Source: Collinsella sp. zg1085 (GTDB taxonomy: Bacteria; Actinomycetota; Coriobacteriia; Coriobacteriales; Coriobacteriaceae). Taken from it: 64,000 bases of DNA. How positions within the stretch are numbered: position 1 is the first letter of the stretch; each line of letters opens with the position of its first letter. The translations under genes were made by a program, and so were the position numbers. The stretch spans positions 124,001 to 188,000 of the forward strand of contig NZ_CP076545.1 in the NCBI RefSeq assembly GCF_018889955.1, given 5' to 3'. Shown in pieces: positions 3,109-61,102 of this stretch. The notes below the pieces were generated by a model, which saw only the letters and a list, made by a program, of their open reading frames with translations, searched no databases and had not been told where the DNA came from.

Positions 3109-3150
3109 CTTATGCCAAAACATGGTAGATGACCTCGTGTTATCAACCCT

Positions 3151-3312
3151 ACACACTCAACACCAAAAAACATCTATCCTGAACACTCAACAAGCCAAAA
3201 CATCTATCTCGCACACTCAACACCGTGAAAACATCAATCCTAAACACTCAAGAGAGAAAAACATCCATCGTAAACACTCAACATGTCAAAACATCTATCC
3301 TGCACACTCGAG
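3151..3312. repeat. Six-unit 30-bp tandem repeat (iteron-like array)
   Basis: The word CACTCAA (CACTCGA in the last unit) recurs at 3154, 3184, 3214, 3245, 3275 and 3305, so the period is 30 bp (once 31). Each unit is CACTCAA, four to six variable bases, then AAAACATCTATCC-like sequence. Units abut without spacers. The array lies between the recombinase operon and the att copy at 3429. A 76-codon frame runs through it (3122-3352), but it is low-complexity and lacks a convincing ribosome site, so it is treated as DNA repeat. Role unknown; recombinase accessory sites, iterons or element-end binding sites are possible. Confidence 0.85.
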
Positions 3313-5929: not shown

Positions 5930-7603
5930 AGAGACAGGCTTTAGGAGGGGCTGTGTTTTTCGAGAGTTTTTGGGAACATATGCGTCACAAAACTGCTCGC
6001 TTCTCAATTCAGATGAGACCAAGGTATTGCCTTCCCTGAATGTGCTGCGCAAAATTCTCCGAACGCAACACCTTGGTTTTACGTCTGCCTTTCGTGTTTA
6101 AACAAACTGCATTTCAATAAAGCTGTGTCCCGCGAACACTTCCCTGAAAAAGCAACTTGTTTTTCTCTTGTGCGGACAGATTTCAAAACACCGCCAACTT
6201 GAATGAGCTGTTTTGACAGAAACGGGCAATGTGGCAGTAAAACCTGACAGAAACAGGCAATGTGGCAATAAACCCCCTGTAGTACAAAAAACTGCACTTC
6301 ATCTACCTGCAGGTTTATAAAACAATGAATAACCCACGGGGTTCTACACTACCAAATTGCCCGTTTCTGTCAAAAGAGGTTTGGCTAATGCCACTGTCTT
6401 CCTGTGAGTTGGCAAAAAAGACTAATTTGACGCAAAAATCTGTCATTTTTGACCAATTTGGCATAAAGAGACAGTTGTTGCTTTACGCGTAGCTCTTCTA
6501 CCTGCGGCTTTGTATGACAAATACTAACCCGCTGGGTTATAGAGAGTACTTTTTTGTCATTTTTGCCAAAGCGACAGGTGTAACTTATTGATGTAATGGT
6601 GGTAGTAGTTTGTGTTTAGTGCATTAGCTGTACTACTGCGTAACGTGCCGTAATGAATTGCAGTGTTAGAAATACCTTGTAATAGCTTTACGAAATTGCG
6701 AAAACTCAGGGCTACTGGGAAGCAAAACGCTCTAGTGTACGAATTTTTGCTAGTAGCCCGAGTATAGGGGGTCTGTACAAAGAAACTTTTCAGCATTTCC
6801 GCAGGAAGGATGCTTTAGCTTAGTAGAGTGTACTTGACCCTAGTCAAGAAAATCGTACATTAGATGGATTTCCTCTTGGGGCGTTGATGTAATGCAGCTC
6901 ATATCACTTATTAGCTAAAAAAACACTGCAACAGAGGTAGTTTGAGCAGTCAGACCAAGGTATTGCGTTCGGAGAATTCTGCGTAGCACATTCGTAGAAC
7001 GCAATACCTTGTCTCGTGCACTAACTCTGTAAAAGCTAAGCTCACGGGCAGGCAAAAGCTTAACGGTAGAAAAGAGCTTCAACCCAATCCCATTTCATCC
7101 CATAAGCGCTGCTTGTGCATGGCGGGGTGTGGGAGTGAGCTGATTGCTGTTTGTACATTTGGTATTTACTGTAAGAAAGGGGACGAATGATTGTGCTCGG
7201 AGAATTCTGCGTAGCACATTCGGAGAGCGCAATCATTCGTTCAGTTGAGGTGGAGCTACAGTACAAAGCAGGTGAGATAGAGCTACAACATAAGGGTGGC
7301 ATAGCTTTTCTAAGGGAACTTTCGCGAAGCGCAGTTCCCGTGAAAAGACTATGCCACCCCATAGGTTTACGACTCATTCATCACATAGACGAGGTGAAAG
7401 ACTATGCCACCTCGTAAGCTTGCAATTCATTCGCCCAGCTTAGACGACATGAAAAGTCTCTACCATTCCATACGCTTGCGACTCATTCGTCCAACTTAGA
7501 CGGTGTGAAAAGCCTCTGCCATCAACGATGCTAAGAGCGAAACAAAGCCACCAACCACAGCTCACCCCACACCCCGCCTTCAGGAAGCAAGCAGCCGCTT
7601 ATA
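5930..7603. repeat. Long non-coding palindromic element, copy A (left arm missing)
   Basis: Core with hairpins H3 at 6019-6076 and 6955-7012, then a right arm with H2 at 7183-7240, H1 at 7294-7359, and the outer repeat (AGCTCACCCCACACCCCGCC) ending at about 7603. H1 is GGGTGGCATAG...CTATGCCACCC; H2 is ACGAATGATTG...CAATCATTCGT; H3 is CCAAGGTATTG...CAATACCTTGG. The core also holds TAACCCGCTGGGTTA, ACCTGCAGGT, CTTGACCCTAGTCAAG and repeated TGACAGAAACGGGCAA motifs in both orientations. 5996-6898 reads identical to 36845-37747 of copy B; left of 5996 the two remain alignable but diverge, and the H2/H1 left arm is absent. The right end overlaps the TAA of pepT. No credible gene inside; small frames here are explained by the repeats. 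Confidence 0.9.
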
Positions 7604-35280: not shown

Positions 35281-36339
35281 ATGTCGCTTGAGCCCATCAA
35301 TGAACTCACTCGTACTCCGCTTTTTAATCCTGACGGGGACACCGAGGTGCGCGATCGCCGCATGATTGGTGGAAATACCACCAATTTGAACGACTTTAAC
35401 AACTTGAAGTATCCTTGGGTATCTGATTGGTATCGCCAGGCCATGAATAACTTTTGGATTCCGGAAGAGATAAATCTGTCGCAAGACGTCAAAGACTATC
35501 CCAACCTTACCGAGGATGAGCGTATGGCCTACGATAAAATTTTATCGTTTTTGGTCTTTTTAGATTCGCTTCAGTCAGCAAATTTGCCTAATGTTGCAGA
35601 ATACATCACTGCAAACGAGGTCAACTTGTGCTTGCATATTCAGACTTTCCAGGAATGCGTACATTCCCAGAGCTATAGCTATATGTTGGACACCATTTGC
35701 AGCCCTGAGAAACGTAACGAAATTTTGTATCAATGGAAAGACGACGAGCATTTGCTGCGCCGTAACACCTTTATTGGTGAGCAGTACAACGAGTTCATGA
35801 GCAAAAAAGACGTGCGAACATTGCTCAAGGTAATGATGGCGAATTTTATTCTTGAAGGCGTTTATTTCTATTCGGGCTTTATGTTCTTCTATAACTTGGC
35901 GCGTAATGGAAAAATGCCAGGGTCAGCTCAGGAAATTCGCTATATTAACCGCGACGAGAATACGCATTTGTGGTTGTTCCGCAGTATTATTCTTGAGCTG
36001 CAGCGCGAGGAGCCGCAGCTTTTTGACGACGAGATAGTGAATGAGCTGCGTGAAATGTTGATTGAGGGCGTGCGTCAGGAGATTGAGTGGGGACACTATG
36101 TCATTGATGGACGCATTGCAGGATTAACCCGTGAAATGGTATCGGATTATATCCACTATCTAGGCAATTTGCGCTGGCATTCGCTTGGCTTTGGCACGCT
36201 GTTTGAGGGCTTCGAGCGCGAGCCGGAGAACATGGCGTGGGTGAGCCAGTATTCTAATGCGAATATGGTAAAGACGGACTTCTTTGAGGCACGGTCTACG
36301 GCATATGCAAAGTCAACAGCGTTAGTTGACGACCTATAA
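35281..36339 (+). CDS. nrdB: Class I ribonucleotide reductase, small (beta) subunit
   Basis: 352 residues, ATG behind GAGAGAGGACGAAT. Ferritin-like four-helix protein that generates the radical for NrdA. The metal ligands line up as Asp95 (FLDSLQS), Glu125 and His128 (QECVHS), Glu192 (ILEGVYF), Glu226 and His229 (RDENTHL); the radical-site Tyr132 is present (HSQSYSYM), so this is a tyrosyl-radical type and not a Phe-substituted one. Separated from nrdA by the GH123 gene and therefore needs its own promoter. Its stop codon lies 3-4 bp before repeat element B. Confidence 0.96.
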   Translation: MSLEPINELTRTPLFNPDGDTEVRDRRMIGGNTTNLNDFNNLKYPWVSDWYRQAMNNFWIPEEINLSQDVKDYPNLTEDERMAYDKILSFLVFLDSLQSANLPNVAEYITANEVNLCLHIQTFQECVHSQSYSYMLDTICSPEKRNEILYQWKDDEHLLRRNTFIGEQYNEFMSKKDVRTLLKVMMANFILEGVYFYSGFMFFYNLARNGKMPGSAQEIRYINRDENTHLWLFRSIILELQREEPQLFDDEIVNELREMLIEGVRQEIEWGHYVIDGRIAGLTREMVSDYIHYLGNLRWHSLGFGTLFEGFEREPENMAWVSQYSNANMVKTDFFEARSTAYAKSTALVDDL

Positions 36340-36342
36340 GGA

Positions 36343-38421
36343 TATACGCTGCTGTTTGTTTCTCGGAGGCGGGGTGTGGGGTGAGCTAGCTCCGTGATTG
36401 CCGTCCTAACTTCACCTTTTGTTCAGCAAGTGGCATAGGCTTTTCGCATCGTCAGTTGGGCGAATGAATTGCACGTCTCTGGGGTGGCATAGTCTTTTCA
36501 CGGGAACTGCGCTACGCGAAAGTTCCCTTAGAAAAGCTATGCCACCCCTAAGTGGAAGTTCTATCTCACCTGCTTTGTACAGTAGCTCCATCTCAACGGG
36601 ACGAATGATTGTGCTCTCCGAATGTGCTTCGCAAAATTCTCCGAACACAATCATTCGTCCATTTCTTTAAAGCAAATGCCAAACACACATACGGCACTCA
36701 GCTCGCCCCACACCTCGCCATGCACAAGCAGCGCGTATAGGATGAAAGGGGTTGAGTTGCAACTCCTGCGCAACCAGAGAGAAATCCCGCTTCAAGGGCT
36801 TTTCTACTCGAAAGTCTGCCTAAAACATTTGTTCAGTAAAACTTCTCGCTTCTCAATTCAGATGAGACCAAGGTATTGCCTTCCCTGAATGTGCTGCGCA
36901 AAATTCTCCGAACGCAACACCTTGGTTTTACGTCTGCCTTTCGTGTTTAAACAAACTGCATTTCAATAAAGCTGTGTCCCGCGAACACTTCCCTGAAAAA
37001 GCAACTTGTTTTTCTCTTGTGCGGACAGATTTCAAAACACCGCCAACTTGAATGAGCTGTTTTGACAGAAACGGGCAATGTGGCAGTAAAACCTGACAGA
37101 AACAGGCAATGTGGCAATAAACCCCCTGTAGTACAAAAAACTGCACTTCATCTACCTGCAGGTTTATAAAACAATGAATAACCCACGGGGTTCTACACTA
37201 CCAAATTGCCCGTTTCTGTCAAAAGAGGTTTGGCTAATGCCACTGTCTTCCTGTGAGTTGGCAAAAAAGACTAATTTGACGCAAAAATCTGTCATTTTTG
37301 ACCAATTTGGCATAAAGAGACAGTTGTTGCTTTACGCGTAGCTCTTCTACCTGCGGCTTTGTATGACAAATACTAACCCGCTGGGTTATAGAGAGTACTT
37401 TTTTGTCATTTTTGCCAAAGCGACAGGTGTAACTTATTGATGTAATGGTGGTAGTAGTTTGTGTTTAGTGCATTAGCTGTACTACTGCGTAACGTGCCGT
37501 AATGAATTGCAGTGTTAGAAATACCTTGTAATAGCTTTACGAAATTGCGAAAACTCAGGGCTACTGGGAAGCAAAACGCTCTAGTGTACGAATTTTTGCT
37601 AGTAGCCCGAGTATAGGGGGTCTGTACAAAGAAACTTTTCAGCATTTCCGCAGGAAGGATGCTTTAGCTTAGTAGAGTGTACTTGACCCTAGTCAAGAAA
37701 ATCGTACATTAGATGGATTTCCTCTTGGGGCGTTGATGTAATGCAGCGCATATCACTTATTAGCTAAAAGAAAACACTGCAACAGAGGTAGTTTGAGTGG
37801 GCAGACCAAGGTATTGCATTCGGAGAATTCTGCGTAGCACATTCGTAGAACGCAATACCTTGTCTGTACTGTTAACCAAGTGGGAGTGAGGCTCACGGGC
37901 AAGTAGGGATTTAACGGTAGAAAAGAGCTTAAACCCAAACCCATTTCATCTCATATGCCCTGCTTGTGCATGGCGGGGTGTGAGGTGAGTTGAGTGTCGT
38001 TGTGCATTTGGCATTTACTGTATGAAAGGGACGAATGATTGTGTGCGAAGAATTCTGCGTAGCACATTCGGAGAACACAATCATTCATCCGGTTGATATG
38101 AGGTGATAAGTAATCAACGGAGAGGGAGAATTAGTTCGTAGAACAGGTGAGATAGAACTACAACATAAGGGTGGCATAGCTTTTCTAAGGGAACTTTCGC
38201 GAAGCGCAGTTCCCGTGAAAAGACTATGCCACCCCATAGGTTTACGACTCATTCTCCCAACTGGTGAGATGAAAGACCTACGTCACACAGCAAGCCTGCG
38301 AACCATTCGTTAAACTGTCGAAGCGAAAAGCCTCTGCCATCAACGATGCCAAGAGCGAAATCAAATCCGCAACCACAGCTCACCCCACGCCCCGCCTACA
38401 GGAAGCGAGTAGCCGCTTATC
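36343..38421. repeat. Long non-coding palindromic element, copy B (complete)
   Basis: About 2.08 kb between nrdB and the EF-G-like gene. Left arm: outer repeat (GGCGGGGTGTGGGGTGAGCT near 36372), H1 36482-36547, H2 36601-36658, inner outer-type repeat with CCACACCTCGCCATGCACAA near 36705, H3 36868-36925. Core to H3 37806-37862. Right arm, inverted: inner repeat near 37965, H2 38031-38088, H1 38169-38234, outer repeat ending at about 38421. 36845-37747 reads identical to 5996-6898. No protein-coding signature; a 72-codon and a 79-codon frame shared with copy A follow simply from that identity. The left end starts 3-4 bp after the nrdB stop. Confidence 0.92.
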
Positions 38422-42779: not shown

Positions 42780-42786
42780 GACGGGG

Positions 42787-45020
42787 TATACGCCGGTGCT
42801 TGCTTCCTGGAGGCGAGGTGTGGGGTGAGCTGGCCTTGCGTCACCCATTTGGTTTGCAAACTTGTTGGGTGGCATGGTTTTTCACGTCATCTAAGCTGGG
42901 CGAACGATTTGCAGGCTTGTTGAGCGGCAGAGGTTTTCACCTCGTCAGTTGGGCGATTGGTTTGCACGTCTATGGGGTGGCATAGTTTTTTCACGGGAAC
43001 TGCGCTTCGCGAAAGTTCCCTTAGAAAAGCTATGCCACCCTTATGCTGCATCTCTATCTCACCCGCTTTGTTCGGTAGCTCCATCTCAATCAAACGAATG
43101 ATTGTGCTCTCCGAATGTGCTACGCAGAATTCTCCGAACACAATCATTCGTCCTTTTAATACGATAAAGACCTAAAACCTTACAGCATGCGGCAATCTCC
43201 ACACCCCGCCATGTACAAGCAGCGCATATGGGTTGAAAAGGGGTTGAGTTGTAGCTCTTACGGGACAAAAGCGAGATGCCCACTTCAAAAGGATAGTGCT
43301 ACTCGATAATCTACCTAGAAACGTAAGCTCCGCAAAGCTCATTCGTTTCTTAACTCAGGTAAGACCAAGGTATTGCATTTTACGAATGTGCTTCGCAGAA
43401 TTCTCCGAACGCAATACCTTGGTCTTTCACCTATTTACCGTGCTTTCCAAATTTCAAATCAAGAATAGAGTAGTTCGCGAACACTTTCCCTAGAAATACA
43501 GCACGTTTCTCATATGTGCGGACAGATTCCAAAACACCGCCAACTTGGTTGAGCGGTTTTGACAGAAACGGGCAATTTGGCAGTAAAACCTGACAAAAAT
43601 GAGCAATATGGCAATAAACCCCCTGTAGTATGAAAAACTGCAAGTTATCTACCTGCAGGTTTACAAAACAACAAATAACCCACGGGGGTTCTACACTGCC
43701 AAATTGCCCATTTCTGTCAAAAGAGGCTGGGCTAGCATTGCCACCAACGGAAATCAGATTAGGAAACAAAACTTGAAATCCTGCGAAAACAATTAAATCT
43801 AGCGGTCAAACAAAACCTCTGAACTGCGCTTTGGCAAAAGTGACTAATTTGACGCAAAATTCTGTCATTTTTGACCAATTTGGCATAAAGAGACAATTGT
43901 TAACTTACTCTCAGCTTATCTACCTGCGGCTTTGTAGGATAAATACTAACCCGCTGGGTTATAGAGAGTACTTTTTCGTCAGTTTTGCCAAAGCGACAGA
44001 TGTAACTTATCTATGTGACAAGAGCCTTAGCACCCGATACGGCATAATTGTGCTGCTATTGCGTTTTGCGAAGCAATTCCGGTATGTTAACCCAACGTGT
44101 AACGATGCATTGTTGGCTTGTCTCGGCAATATCTTGACGTAATGGGAACTCGCAGGGATTTATGGAGCAAACAATGCTCCTATGAAATTGCGAAAACTCT
44201 GAGGTTCTGGAAGTTAATCAATCTAGTGTACGAATTTTTGCCAGCAGCTTGAGTATGGGGGGTCTGTACAAGCAAATATTTTAGTATTTCCGCAGGAAAG
44301 ACGCTTTACTTTAGTGGAGTGTACTTAACCATAGTCAAGATGATCGTACATTAGATGGGTTTCCTCTTGGGGCGTTAATGTGAAAGACCTATTCTACATA
44401 TTAGTCGACGAAAAACAGTGCAGCAGAAGCAATGACGAGCAATGAGACAAGGTATTGCATTCGGGGAATTCTGCGCAGCACATTCATAGAATGCAATACC
44501 TTGCCCGTAGTGCTAACTAGGTGAGTGTAAAGCTTACAGGCAGGTAAGAACTTAACGGTAGAAAAGAGCTCCAGTCCAAACCTTTTTATCCCATATGCCC
44601 TGCTTGTGCATGGCGGGGTGTGGAGTGAGCTGACCGCTGTTGTGCATTTGGTATTTACCGTAAGAAAGGGGACGAATGATTGTGCAGCACATTCTTAGAG
44701 CATAATCATTCGTCCAGTTGAGATAGGGTTGTAGTACAAAGCAGGTGAGATAGAGCTGCAGCATAAGGGTGGCATAGCTTTTCTAAGGGAACTTTCGCGA
44801 AGCGCAGTTCCCGTGAAAAGACTATGCCACCCCATAGGCGTGCAAACCAATCGCCCAACTGACGAAGTAAAAGCCTCTGCCGCTCAACAAGCTTGCAAAT
44901 CATTCGTCTAACTTAGATGACGTGAAAAGCCTCTGCCATCAACGAAATCAAGGACGAAACAAAGACAGCAACAACAGCTCATCCCACACCCCGCCTCTAG
45001 GAAACAAGCAGCCGCGTATA
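42787..45020. repeat. Long non-coding palindromic element, copy C (complete, diverged)
   Basis: About 2.23 kb. Left arm: outer repeat (GAGGTGTGGGGTGAGCT near 42813), H1 42975-43040, H2 43094-43151, H3 43365-43422. Core 43423-44447 keeps the same order of motifs as copies A and B (TGACAGAAACGGGCAA pair, ACCTGCAGGT, ATAACCCACGGG, TAACCCGCTGGGTTA, CGCAGGAAAGACGCTTTA) but with many substitutions and about 100 extra bases near 43730-43830. Right arm: H3 44448-44503, H2 44672-44713 (shortened to 42 bp, middle deleted but tips kept), H1 44767-44832, outer repeat to about 45020. No credible gene. Confidence 0.9.
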
Positions 45021-45223
45021 TCATCATAGTTTCTCTAAAATTCACGCCCCTTCACCGATTTTTATCCCCGCTTGCCGGAATAAAGCGAATGTGTCTATAA
45101 AATTATGCGTTGCATGAGAGAATTTAAGTAACATTTGCACAATTTTTTGTTGTGCACAATTGAACCTGAGTGGCTCTGGAAACTGGGTAGCTCTGAGTTG
45201 AATGGTGGAGGTGGTAGCGACTT

Positions 45224-57759: not shown

Positions 57760-58920
57760 ATGGCAAGAAAACCCATTCAGCAAATGCGTTATGCAAGTGG
57801 AGCTGCAAGTCGTATTTATAGCCGCGAAAATGTTGAGCGGTATTCACAGCGTGCGCGTGAGCGTCGCCGCGGACGAGTTATGCGGCGTGTAATTACTACT
57901 ACCATTGTGTTGCTTTTTGTTTTGGGCGGCAGCGCGCTGGCACTCAATATTGCAAAGAGCATCATTAACGGCTCACTGCATGGTGATGCAGGTTATCTCA
58001 ATGGTCTGGTGGGTGTTCTTACCGATAATAATGCGGCAAAGGATCCATTTAATATTTTGTTGCTAGGCACCGATGGACGACCAGGAGAGGATACGTTTAG
58101 GTCGGATTCTATTATTCTGGCGCATGTCGATCCAGTTAAGAAAACCGCTGCTCTCATCTCAATTCCGCGCGATACTAAGGTTGAATATAAGGGCAGCACA
58201 ATGAAGATTAACGAGACGCATGCTTATGGCGGTCCTGAGGCTGTCGTTACTGCGGTTAAAGATTTGTGCGGTGTTGATATTTCCTATTACGCTGAAGTGA
58301 GTTTCACGGGTATGGTGAACTTGGTTGATGCAGTTGGGGGCATAGATTTAACCATTCCTGAAGGTGACGCCGTGGACGACCCAGATGCAGGTGATGTGCC
58401 GGTTCCTTCGGGAGATCAGCATCTTAACGGTGAGATGGCGTTGGTCTTTAGCCGCGCGCGTCATCAGTTTGGCGATGGCGACTATACACGCATGCGTCAC
58501 CAGCGTATGGTTTTAGGTGCACTAGCAAAGAAGATTCTTAATAATCTTGATTTGACACAGGTACCGGCATTGCTGGATTCACTGAAAGAAATGCTGGTCA
58601 CCACCATGAATGTAGATGACATCATTGGCGTTATGACAGCAATGCGCGGTATGGATACCAATAATATTTGGTCGGCTAATCTTCCAAGTCACGCCGGTTC
58701 AGATACCATGATTAACGGAAAGAGCTATGTCTTTGTATATGAAGAAGAGCTCAAAGAAATGATGGCACTTGTTGAGGCTGGTGAAGATCCCAAAGGCCCC
58801 AATAGCTCTGGGCGCAAGGGTCAGTCAACAACACTGGGCGATCTTGCAACTAACAGCAGCGACGATTGGACAAATGGAGCTGCTGTTACCGCGGGCGGCG
58901 GGCATTCCGAAACCGAGTGA
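57760..58920 (+). CDS. LytR-CpsA-Psr (LCP) family wall-polymer transferase
   Basis: 386 residues, starts 11 bp after murA. Basic cytosolic N-terminus (about 1-40), one membrane helix about 42-63 (VITTTIVLLFVLGGSALAL), then an external LCP domain: ILLLGTDGR, RSDSIILAHVDP, ISIPRDTKV, VDAVGGIDLTIP, FSRARHQFGDGDYTRMRHQR. LCP enzymes move teichoic-acid-like or capsular polymers from a lipid carrier to peptidoglycan or proteins. The Arg and Asp residues that bind pyrophosphate are present. The C-terminal 60 residues are Ser/Gly-rich and disordered. The TGA stop shares its final base with the start of element D. Confidence 0.94.
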   Translation: MARKPIQQMRYASGAASRIYSRENVERYSQRARERRRGRVMRRVITTTIVLLFVLGGSALALNIAKSIINGSLHGDAGYLNGLVGVLTDNNAAKDPFNILLLGTDGRPGEDTFRSDSIILAHVDPVKKTAALISIPRDTKVEYKGSTMKINETHAYGGPEAVVTAVKDLCGVDISYYAEVSFTGMVNLVDAVGGIDLTIPEGDAVDDPDAGDVPVPSGDQHLNGEMALVFSRARHQFGDGDYTRMRHQRMVLGALAKKILNNLDLTQVPALLDSLKEMLVTTMNVDDIIGVMTAMRGMDTNNIWSANLPSHAGSDTMINGKSYVFVYEEELKEMMALVEAGEDPKGPNSSGRKGQSTTLGDLATNSSDDWTNGAAVTAGGGHSETE

Positions 58921-61102
58921 TACGCCGTTGCTTGCTTCCTAGAGGCAGGGTGTGGGGCGAGCTGTTGTTGCGGATTTGATTTCGCTCTTAGTATCGTTGA
59001 TGGCAGAGGCTTTTCATGTCGTCTAAGCTGGACGAACGAATTGCAAGCTTACGGGGTGGCATAGTCTTTTCACGGGAACTGCGCTTCGCGAAAGTTCCCT
59101 TAGAAAAGCTATGCCACCCTTATGCTGCATCTCTATCTCACCTGTTCTACGAGCTAATTCTCCCTCTCAGTTGATTGCTTATCACCTCATATCAACTGAA
59201 CGAATGATTGTGCTCTCCGAATGTGCTTCGCAGAATTCTTCGAGCACAATCATTCGTCCTCTTCTTACAGTAAATGCCAAATGCATATACAGCACTCAGC
59301 TCACCCCACACCCCGCCATACACAAGCAGCGCATATGGGATAAAAAGGTTTGGGTTGAAGCTCTCTTTTACCGTTAAGCTTTTACCTGCCCGTGAGCCTC
59401 ACTCCCGCTTGGTTAGCAGTACGGACAAGGTATTGCATTCTTCGAATGCAATACCTTGGTCTGCCTACTCAAACTGCCTCTGTTGCAGTGCTTCCTTTTA
59501 GCTAATAAGTGATATATACGCTGTATTACATTAACGCTCAAGGAGGAAACGGGCCTAGTGTACGATTTTTTGCAAGAGGTTAAGTATACTTTGCTAGAGT
59601 AAAGCGTCTTTCCTGCGGAAACGCTGAAAAGTTCGCTTGTACAGACCCCCTATACTTGGACCACAGGGAATAATTCGTACACTAGAGCGATTTGCTTCCA
59701 GAAACCCTGAGTTTTCGCAATTTTGTAAAGCTATTACAAGGTATTCCAACACTGCAATTCATTACGGCACGTTACGCAGCAGTACAGCTAATGCACTAAA
59801 CACAAACTACCACCACCATCACATCGATAAGTTACACCTGTCGTTTTGGCAAAAATGACGAATTTGTACTCTCTATAACCCAGCGGGTTAGTATTTGTCC
59901 TACAAAACCGCAGGTAGATGAGCTGCGAGTAAGTTGACAGCTGTCTCTTTACGCCAAATTCGTCAAAAATGACAGGTTATTGCGTCAAATTAGTCATTTT
60001 TGCCAAAGCATAGGTCAGAGGTGTTATTTGACCACTAGATTTGATTGTTTTCGCCAGATTTCAAGTTTTGTTTGCTAATCTGATTTCCGCTGGTGGCAAT
60101 ACCAGCCCAACGCTTTTTGACAGAAATGGGCAATTTGGTAGTGTAGAACCCCCGTGGGTTATTCGTTATTTTATGAACCTGCAGGTAGATGAAGTATATC
60201 CTTTCCTGCTTTAGGGGGTTTATTGCCAGATTGCCCCTTTTTGTCAGTTTTTACTGCCAAATTGCCCGTTTCTGTCAAAATTGCTCAGCCAAGTTGTCGT
60301 CGTTTTGAAATCTATCTGTACATATGAGAAACGCGCTACTTTTTCAGAAAAAGTGTTTGCGAACTACTCTTTTCTTGATTTGAGTTTTTGGAAAGAACGA
60401 TAAGTAGGTGAATGACCAAGGTATTGCGTTCGGAGAATTCTGCCAAGCATATTCGTAGAATGCAATACCTTGGTCTATTTCAAGTTGAGAAACGAGAAGT
60501 TTTGCGGAGTACACGTTTCGAGGAAGTCTTTCGAGTGAAAAAGCCCTTGAAGCGGGATTTCTCTCTGGTTGCGCAGGAGTTGCAACTAAACCCTTTTCAT
60601 CCTATACGCACTGCTTGTGCATGGCGGAGTGTGGAGTGAGCTGAGTGTCGTATAGGTAATGGGTCGTTACTGTAAAAATAGGACGAATGATTGTGCTCGG
60701 AGAATTTTGCGAAGCACATTCGGAGAGCGCAATCATTCGTTCAGCTGATATGAGGTGATAAGCAAACTACAGAGGGAGAATTAGCTCGTAAAGCAAGTGA
60801 GACAGAGCTACAACATAAGGGTGGCATAGCTTTTCTAAGGGAACTTTCGCGTAGCGCAGTTCCCGTTAAAAGACTATGCCACCCTATACGTTTACGACTC
60901 ATTCATCACATAGACGAGGTGAAAACTATGCCACCCCATACACTTGCAATTCATTCTCCCAGCTTAGACGACGCAAAAAGCCTACGTCACTCAGCAAGCT
61001 TACGAGCTATTCGTCCAGTTGGCAAAGTGAAGCGACATGAAGCAAAATCAGAGCTGCAACCACACCCCACACCCCGCCTCCGGGAAACGAGCAGCTGCTT
61101 AT
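58920..61102. repeat. Long non-coding palindromic element, copy D (complete, core inverted)
   Basis: About 2.18 kb. Left arm: outer repeat (TACGCCGTTGCTTGCTTCCT then GGGTGTGGGGCGAGCT), H1 59054-59119, H2 59200-59257, H3 59426-59458 (only 33 bp: the middle is missing, the stem is perfect). Core to 60415 is the reverse complement of cores A-C (TAACCCAGCGGGTTA near 59877, CGCAAAACTC-type motif inverted). Right arm: H3 60416-60473, H2 60683-60740, H1 60819-60884, outer repeat ending about 61102, six bases before the TAA of the leftward nox gene. So it fills exactly the space between two convergent coding ends. No credible gene. Confidence 0.9.

Follow-up and report, generated by a model that had tools for sequence, protein, structure and literature searches.

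Like the intrinsic terminators of Neisseria and the Pasteurellaceae, many of which carry the DNA uptake sequence, the hairpins described here lie past a stop codon of tandem or convergent genes, and both kinds combine a GC-rich stem with T enrichment and a conserved sequence inside, as far as the accessible part of that source goes (PMC1852404). They also resemble terminator-embedded aptamers (HMP-PP, guanidine-IV and the HRC-8-4 motif) in having a terminator-like stem with conserved tip nucleotides, a combination called unusual for terminators in the available portion of the paper (PMC8632094). With REP, BIME and RAYT systems, as presented in partial texts, they have in common that they are small palindromes in intergenic DNA close to stop codons, mismatched internally and partly arranged in inverted pairs (PMC3733652, PMC2817692, PMC3116915). 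The repeat that carries them here is composite, multi-copy, intergenic and non-coding with inverted ends, similar to BrickBuilt and other bacterial MITEs in the accessible part of their description (PMC4596501).

The window, that is, the whole stretch of 64,000 nucleotides analysed, spans positions 124001-188000 of the genome of Collinsella sp. zg1085 (labelled G000; one contig of 1,720,218 bp). This genome belongs to the Coriobacteriia, a class of gut and mouth bacteria. Its 16S sequence, 91.7% identical to a Collinsella record, pointed to Coriobacteria and away from Porphyromonas, whose repeats had been considered. A 66-bp hairpin, H1, recurs in the window and is a member of a seemingly undescribed family of gene-end hairpins in Coriobacteriia. 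Our best reading is that H1 is a lineage-specific 3′-end or terminator hairpin whose core, made up of fixed internal loops and a GNA tip, is conserved, and that composite repeats captured and amplified it in this genome.

H1 and the repeats that carry it

All seven 66-bp copies claimed in the earlier note are where it placed them. They are given below with the strand that bears the GCGNAGC tip and the score of the covariance model R1, described in the next section.

7294-7359, plus strand: H1, 50.5 bits
36482-36547, minus strand: H1, 48.4 bits
38169-38234, plus strand: H1, 50.5 bits
42975-43040, minus strand: H1, 48.7 bits
44767-44832, plus strand: H1, 50.5 bits
59054-59119, minus strand: H1, 50.5 bits
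60819-60884, plus strand: H1, 41.1 bits

Genome-wide there are 28 near-identical copies, and a further, degenerate one lies at genome position 1362113. Folded as DNA, H1 is far more stable than expected (z about -8.4; none of 200 shuffles folds equally well), and both of its strands, as DNA or as RNA, fold much better than shuffles. The tip form first proposed, GCGAAGCGC, is present in five of the window copies, and those at 36482 and 60819 have GCGTAGCGC instead. The contrast drawn between a constant H1 and variable surroundings is also seen genome-wide: over the 28 copies, the per-site difference is 0.8% at paired sites and 32-33% in the 40-bp flanks. Unpaired sites differ from the consensus at 5.1%, and the middle loop base of GCG(A/T)AGC accounts for 11 of the 29 differences. 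In the stems of these copies, eight changes break pairing, four are one-sided and none is compensated. The absence of covariation within the 28 copies is explained by the near absence of variation there. At genome positions 1275625 and 1598870 (L026 and L027), one H1 copy keeps its usual flanks but is itself inverted, and one is perfectly palindromic, the outcome expected of template switching.

Two other hairpins, H2 and H3, have stems unlike that of H1 and follow a common plan of outer stem, internal loop, inner stem, 2x1 internal loop, three base pairs and GNA loop.

7181-7240, plus strand: H2, H1 architecture with another stem
36597-36662, minus strand: H2
38029-38090, plus strand: H2
43094-43153, minus strand: H2
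59200-59259, minus strand: H2
60681-60740, plus strand: H2
6954-7011, plus strand: H3, H1 architecture with a third stem
6017-6079, minus strand: H3
36866-36928, minus strand: H3
37805-37862, plus strand: H3
43363-43423, minus strand: H3
44448-44503, plus strand: H3
60415-60475, plus strand: H3

R1 matches them weakly, with 15-25 bits for H2 and 15-24 bits at most copies of H3. The window genome contains 72 matches to the tip pattern TYYGCGNAGCRC against 15 to a reversed control, with a slight excess at most in the other 38 genomes searched, and all 60 occurrences within the examined stretches fall in H1, H2 or H3. Four chimeric hairpins (genome positions 260275, 1275536, 1297473 and 1649065) have lost their outer pairing because an H3 left arm is joined to an H2 right arm.

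In the window genome, H1 sits together with H2 and H3 inside non-coding composite repeats of 0.4-2.2 kb, and all 28 copies lie in such composites or in solo repeat remnants. The modules follow the order End-Tan-H1-sp1-H2-GC1-H3-A-B-C, which is often followed by the inverted series.

6017-7603: composite repeat 1, H3-A-B-C-H3-GC1-H2-H1-Tan-End
36340-38420: composite repeat 2, full length, with nested inverted arms; its left end abuts the stop codon of ORF 35281-36339
42784-45022: composite repeat 3, full length
58920-61102: composite repeat 4, full length; the ORFs on its two sides are convergent, and each end of the repeat lies at a stop codon

GC1 is an inverted copy of End, and End...GC1 is therefore a unit with terminal inverted repeats; it stands alone at 67647-68058. 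The composite, as distinct from H1, has the terminal inverted repeats expected of a MITE, and no target-site duplication was seen by eye at four full-length composites. In 13 of 20 End modules, the distance to the stop codon of the gene ending there is -5 to +6 nt, and the remaining seven face a gene start.

Several further features of this genome were observed. Modules A, B and C, of about 170-190 bp, have terminal inverted repeats of their own (window 6402-6594, 6718-6890 and 37057-37725, and genome-wide), are also found singly in intergenic regions, and gave no BLAST match in 38 relatives. Two composites are essentially identical over about 866 bp (6081-6946 and 36930-37800), which points to recent copying or to gene conversion. 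The genome interval from 641 to 1115 kb (about 475 kb) holds neither composite nor H1, with a chance of about 1% by hand estimate, and is perhaps the terminus region. A tandem array of five copies of a 30-nt unit (73% matches) at window 3142-3309 is unrelated to H1. A phage or plasmid origin was rejected, as the composite and the exact cores had no match in viral contigs, phages or plasmids.

Related hairpins across the Coriobacteriia

BLAST with a 2.1-kb composite against 396 genomes of the class matched only the H1 core outside the window genome itself, in 9 of 395 genomes, all of them from genus g13, the Thermophilibacter/Olsenella group. A tenth g13 genome with the core came from a separate search. 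Both stems of the g13 hairpins differ from those of H1 yet are complementary, while the C-TAA-G/C-GT-G, TT/C and YGC-GNA-GCR elements are kept; over nine g13 sequences, both sides have changed in 10 of 20 pairs. The model R1 was trained on g13 sequences with H1 left out, and it finds all seven window copies of H1 (41.1-50.5 bits, with rough E-values of 1e-8 to 3e-11). Across the class, R1 matches occur in 60 of 396 genomes from 12 genera, with at most 15 candidates scored per genome and about four genomes expected by chance at the threshold used. Deeper scoring gives 3-29 matches per genome in nine g13 genomes and 30 in the window genome. Within the window's own genus, eleven other genomes have one to three matches each, mostly weak.

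The aligned matches (81, of which 74 are distinct) have 97.9% of cells paired and 366 two-sided cells. Two-sided change affects 19 of 20 pairs in the 74 distinct matches, and the covariation score is 0.671, where slid partners score no more than 0.098, in an alignment fitted to the structure, which favours this score. The idea of selection on structure is supported by the other genera, in which the H1-type internal loops and tip persist although both stems have given way to compensated sequences. A spaced exact pattern, searched in 84,980 species represented by one genome each, returned 79 stretches, every one with a Coriobacteriia title: Thermophilibacter, Olsenella, Atopobiaceae MAGs, an Atopobium sp., one Coriobacteriaceae and one Collinsella MAG. 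An exact 26-mer of H1 matched no other genome contig, in a set from which the window genome itself is possibly absent. None of the Rfam 15 covariance models scored above its gathering threshold, and only miRNA-type matches below it fell at the hairpins. A literature search, with most subscription papers outside its reach, found no description of an H1-type motif.

These results bear on whether H1 has a function at all. A recent passenger, or a gene-conversion tract inside a repeat family, could produce copies that are near identical and, in the window genome, confined to repeats; the 866-bp identity of two composites and the inverted and palindromic copies would suit such an origin as well. 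However, the flanks on both sides have diverged by a third and H1 has not, and the same fold is conserved with other stems in other families. Cross-genus covariation disfavours a functionless H1, which we regard as very improbable.

The hairpins might also be REP/BIME-like, that is, substrates of a RAYT or Y1 (HUH) single-strand transposase by which they are spread. They are indeed intergenic palindromes near stop codons, with back-to-back pairs at some loci and inverted flanks common to unrelated genes, and Y1_Tnp is found in 49 of 60 motif genomes against 196 of 396 overall (a hand tally confounded by kinship). However, the RAYT-type transposase envisaged in the earlier note is missing from the window genome, which has no Y1_Tnp (PF01797) match; the motif-rich genome G035 has none either, and G119 and G253 are not among the Y1 positives. 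No R1 match lies within 300 bp of any of the 20 Y1 genes examined (20 fetched regions). The best match of four Y1 proteins is a REP-associated transposase model, one of them above the cut-off, and 9 of 12 RAYT-like genes inspected in the Thermophilibacter group have a different hairpin, of the AAAAGGGGTCTGTCCCCTTTT or AAAAGTGACTGTCCCTTTT type, directly downstream. The foot tags are at chance (about 3.8% each for GTAG and CGTC), with GTAG at 5, GGAG at 6 and CGTC at 3 of 126 hairpins, and orthologous positions have compensated stems, which also argues against spread by a transposase. Such an element is, in our judgement, quite unlikely. The ORF bounded by hairpins in loci of the window's genus, considered as a candidate transposase, encodes a membrane transporter.

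Many hairpins of the Thermophilibacter group (L096-L107, L113, L166, L172, L188 and L196) are flanked by inverted CGAGAAGAAC/GTTCTTCTCG, beginning 0-2 nt past a TAG stop at unrelated genes. The sharing of inverted flanks among unrelated genes of this group and the amplification in the window genome look like mobility.

Position and polarity at gene ends

Outside the window genome, 126 hairpins from 110 loci were retained; they were chosen by score, are partly orthologous and are not independent. Genes were called with a codon model fitted to ORFs rich in GC at the third position. On these calls, 50 of the hairpins have a gene end on either side, 55 have an end on one side and a start on the other, and none is flanked by two starts; 8 overlap a called ORF and 13 have a missing neighbour. 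A gene end is found within 120 nt of 101 hairpins, and the GNA strand is antisense to that gene in 93 and sense in 8. In 92 of the 93 antisense cases, the hairpin starts 7-40 nt past the stop codon. The 10 nt after the hairpin contain 3.8 T on average, against 1.9 in the 10 nt at 21-30 nt (93 sequences; P 1e-9), although the T tracts are imperfect, with a longest run of at most three in 83 of 94. Outside the window genome, the hairpins thus have the placement by which terminators are recognised, being stable, GC-rich and just past the stop in tandem and convergent regions. TGA is rare among the stops beside them (1 of 110 against 23 of 154 among other stops, P 4e-5). The 94 upstream genes form 34 ortholog groups, one of which (S10-like) is common to genera g18 (family f1) and g13 (family f5). 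From their C-terminal letters, the upstream genes presumably include those for GroEL, a glutamate synthase-like protein, glutamate dehydrogenase, rubrerythrin, PhoU and ribosomal protein S10.

The statement in the earlier note that no T run follows H1 is correct for the strand on which it was made. The other strand, in the sense of the adjacent genes, does have an imperfect T-rich stretch, such as CTTATGTTGTAG; T content downstream of H1 is 4.5 per 10 nt in the sense direction (28 copies) and 2.9 in the opposite one (27 copies). The rejection of simple termination is accordingly weakened by the position, polarity and T enrichment of the hairpins. In the window genome, 21 of 29 H1 copies (the degenerate one included) face the 3′ end of a gene in the sense direction. 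The distance is 69-394 nt, and once 1197 nt, not about 25 nt.

The same core could also work in DNA, the template strand extruding an ultrastable GNA-tipped hairpin, as a cruciform or in single-stranded form, that is used at gene ends by a DNA-binding protein or topoisomerase. GNA loops and GGA/GGA sheared G-A motifs are very stable in DNA. The loop is G-N-A with N free (GAA in 67, GCA in 19, GGA in 5 and GTA in 1 of 114 distinct cores, as counted by automatic folding, which gave other loops for the other 22); H1 has 16 GAA and 11 GTA loops among 29, H3 shows all four middle bases, and the GGA/GGA loop of the H2/H3 type also suits sheared G-A pairs. The stable sheared G-A geometry of the invariant GNA and GGA/GGA fits the antisense strand better than mRNA, and a DNA role would therefore be favoured on this point. 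However, the hairpins keep a strict polarity towards the upstream gene and a fixed distance from it, with T enrichment, and these features fit a function in the transcript at least equally; we consider a DNA-level element unlikely.

A role at mRNA 3′ ends is the most likely reading of H1-type hairpins and one that we hold to be probable. Read in the sense of the upstream gene, the element consists of the stop codon, about 25 nt, and a long stem of free but complementary sequence, then a conserved 2x3 internal loop (AC/TTA, or TCC-type in the H2/H3 class) and an inner stem that is short and variable. It is completed by a conserved 1x2 internal loop (G/AA), three base pairs closed by a TNC loop (GNA on the other strand) and an imperfect T tract. 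The hairpin may end or protect the mRNA in the manner of an intrinsic terminator, and its core could be read by a protein or by RNA polymerase, or could act as a fold of exceptional stability. Such a reader or special fold is suggested by the combination of free stems with internal loops and a tip that are conserved. In the window genome, a composite palindromic repeat with ends abutting stop codons would have captured the hairpin and spread it, and constraint on the core would hold H1 constant while the surrounding repeat drifts. The signal seems older than the repeat that captured it, an order that we infer because eleven other genomes of the genus carry R1 matches. Against a 3′-end role stand the imperfect T tracts and the distance of H1 from gene ends in the window genome; in addition, neither the conserved internal loops nor the conserved tip would be required of a plain terminator.

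It is possible, and we suggest it tentatively, that the family is a factor-dependent gene-end signal specific to Coriobacteriia. The internal loops and GNA tip would bind a candidate protein or RNA polymerase that sets the 3′ ends of highly expressed housekeeping transcripts, the two loop types would be two addresses, and a selfish composite would have captured the signal and so settle harmlessly beside stop codons. Terminator stems normally vary freely; here, genera of at least two families have the same fixed loops and tip, and the stems are rewritten with compensation, which implies a specific reader. The analysis yields a ready covariance model and lists of genes, and it offers a natural example of a non-coding repeat that seems to owe its spread to the gene-end signal it carries.

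Comparison with known systems

The cited descriptions are compared here as far as their accessible parts extend. Unlike BrickBuilt and other MITEs, the composite is modular, reaches 2.2 kb and contains nested hairpins, and it shows no visible target duplication (PMC4596501). Unlike REP, BIME and RAYT systems, the H1 family is without GTAG/CGTC enrichment and without a cognate RAYT, and its stems differ between copies in other genera (PMC3733652). DNA uptake sequences number about 1000 or more per genome, whereas H1 has 28 copies here, in the tens (PMC1852404). In uptake-sequence terminators the likeness also ends at the core, as the H1 family conserves unpaired loops and tip, leaves its stems free and has an imperfect T tract (PMC1852404). 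Finally, terminator-embedded aptamers are taken as regulators of the genes downstream, whereas H1-type hairpins follow many unrelated housekeeping genes (PMC8632094).
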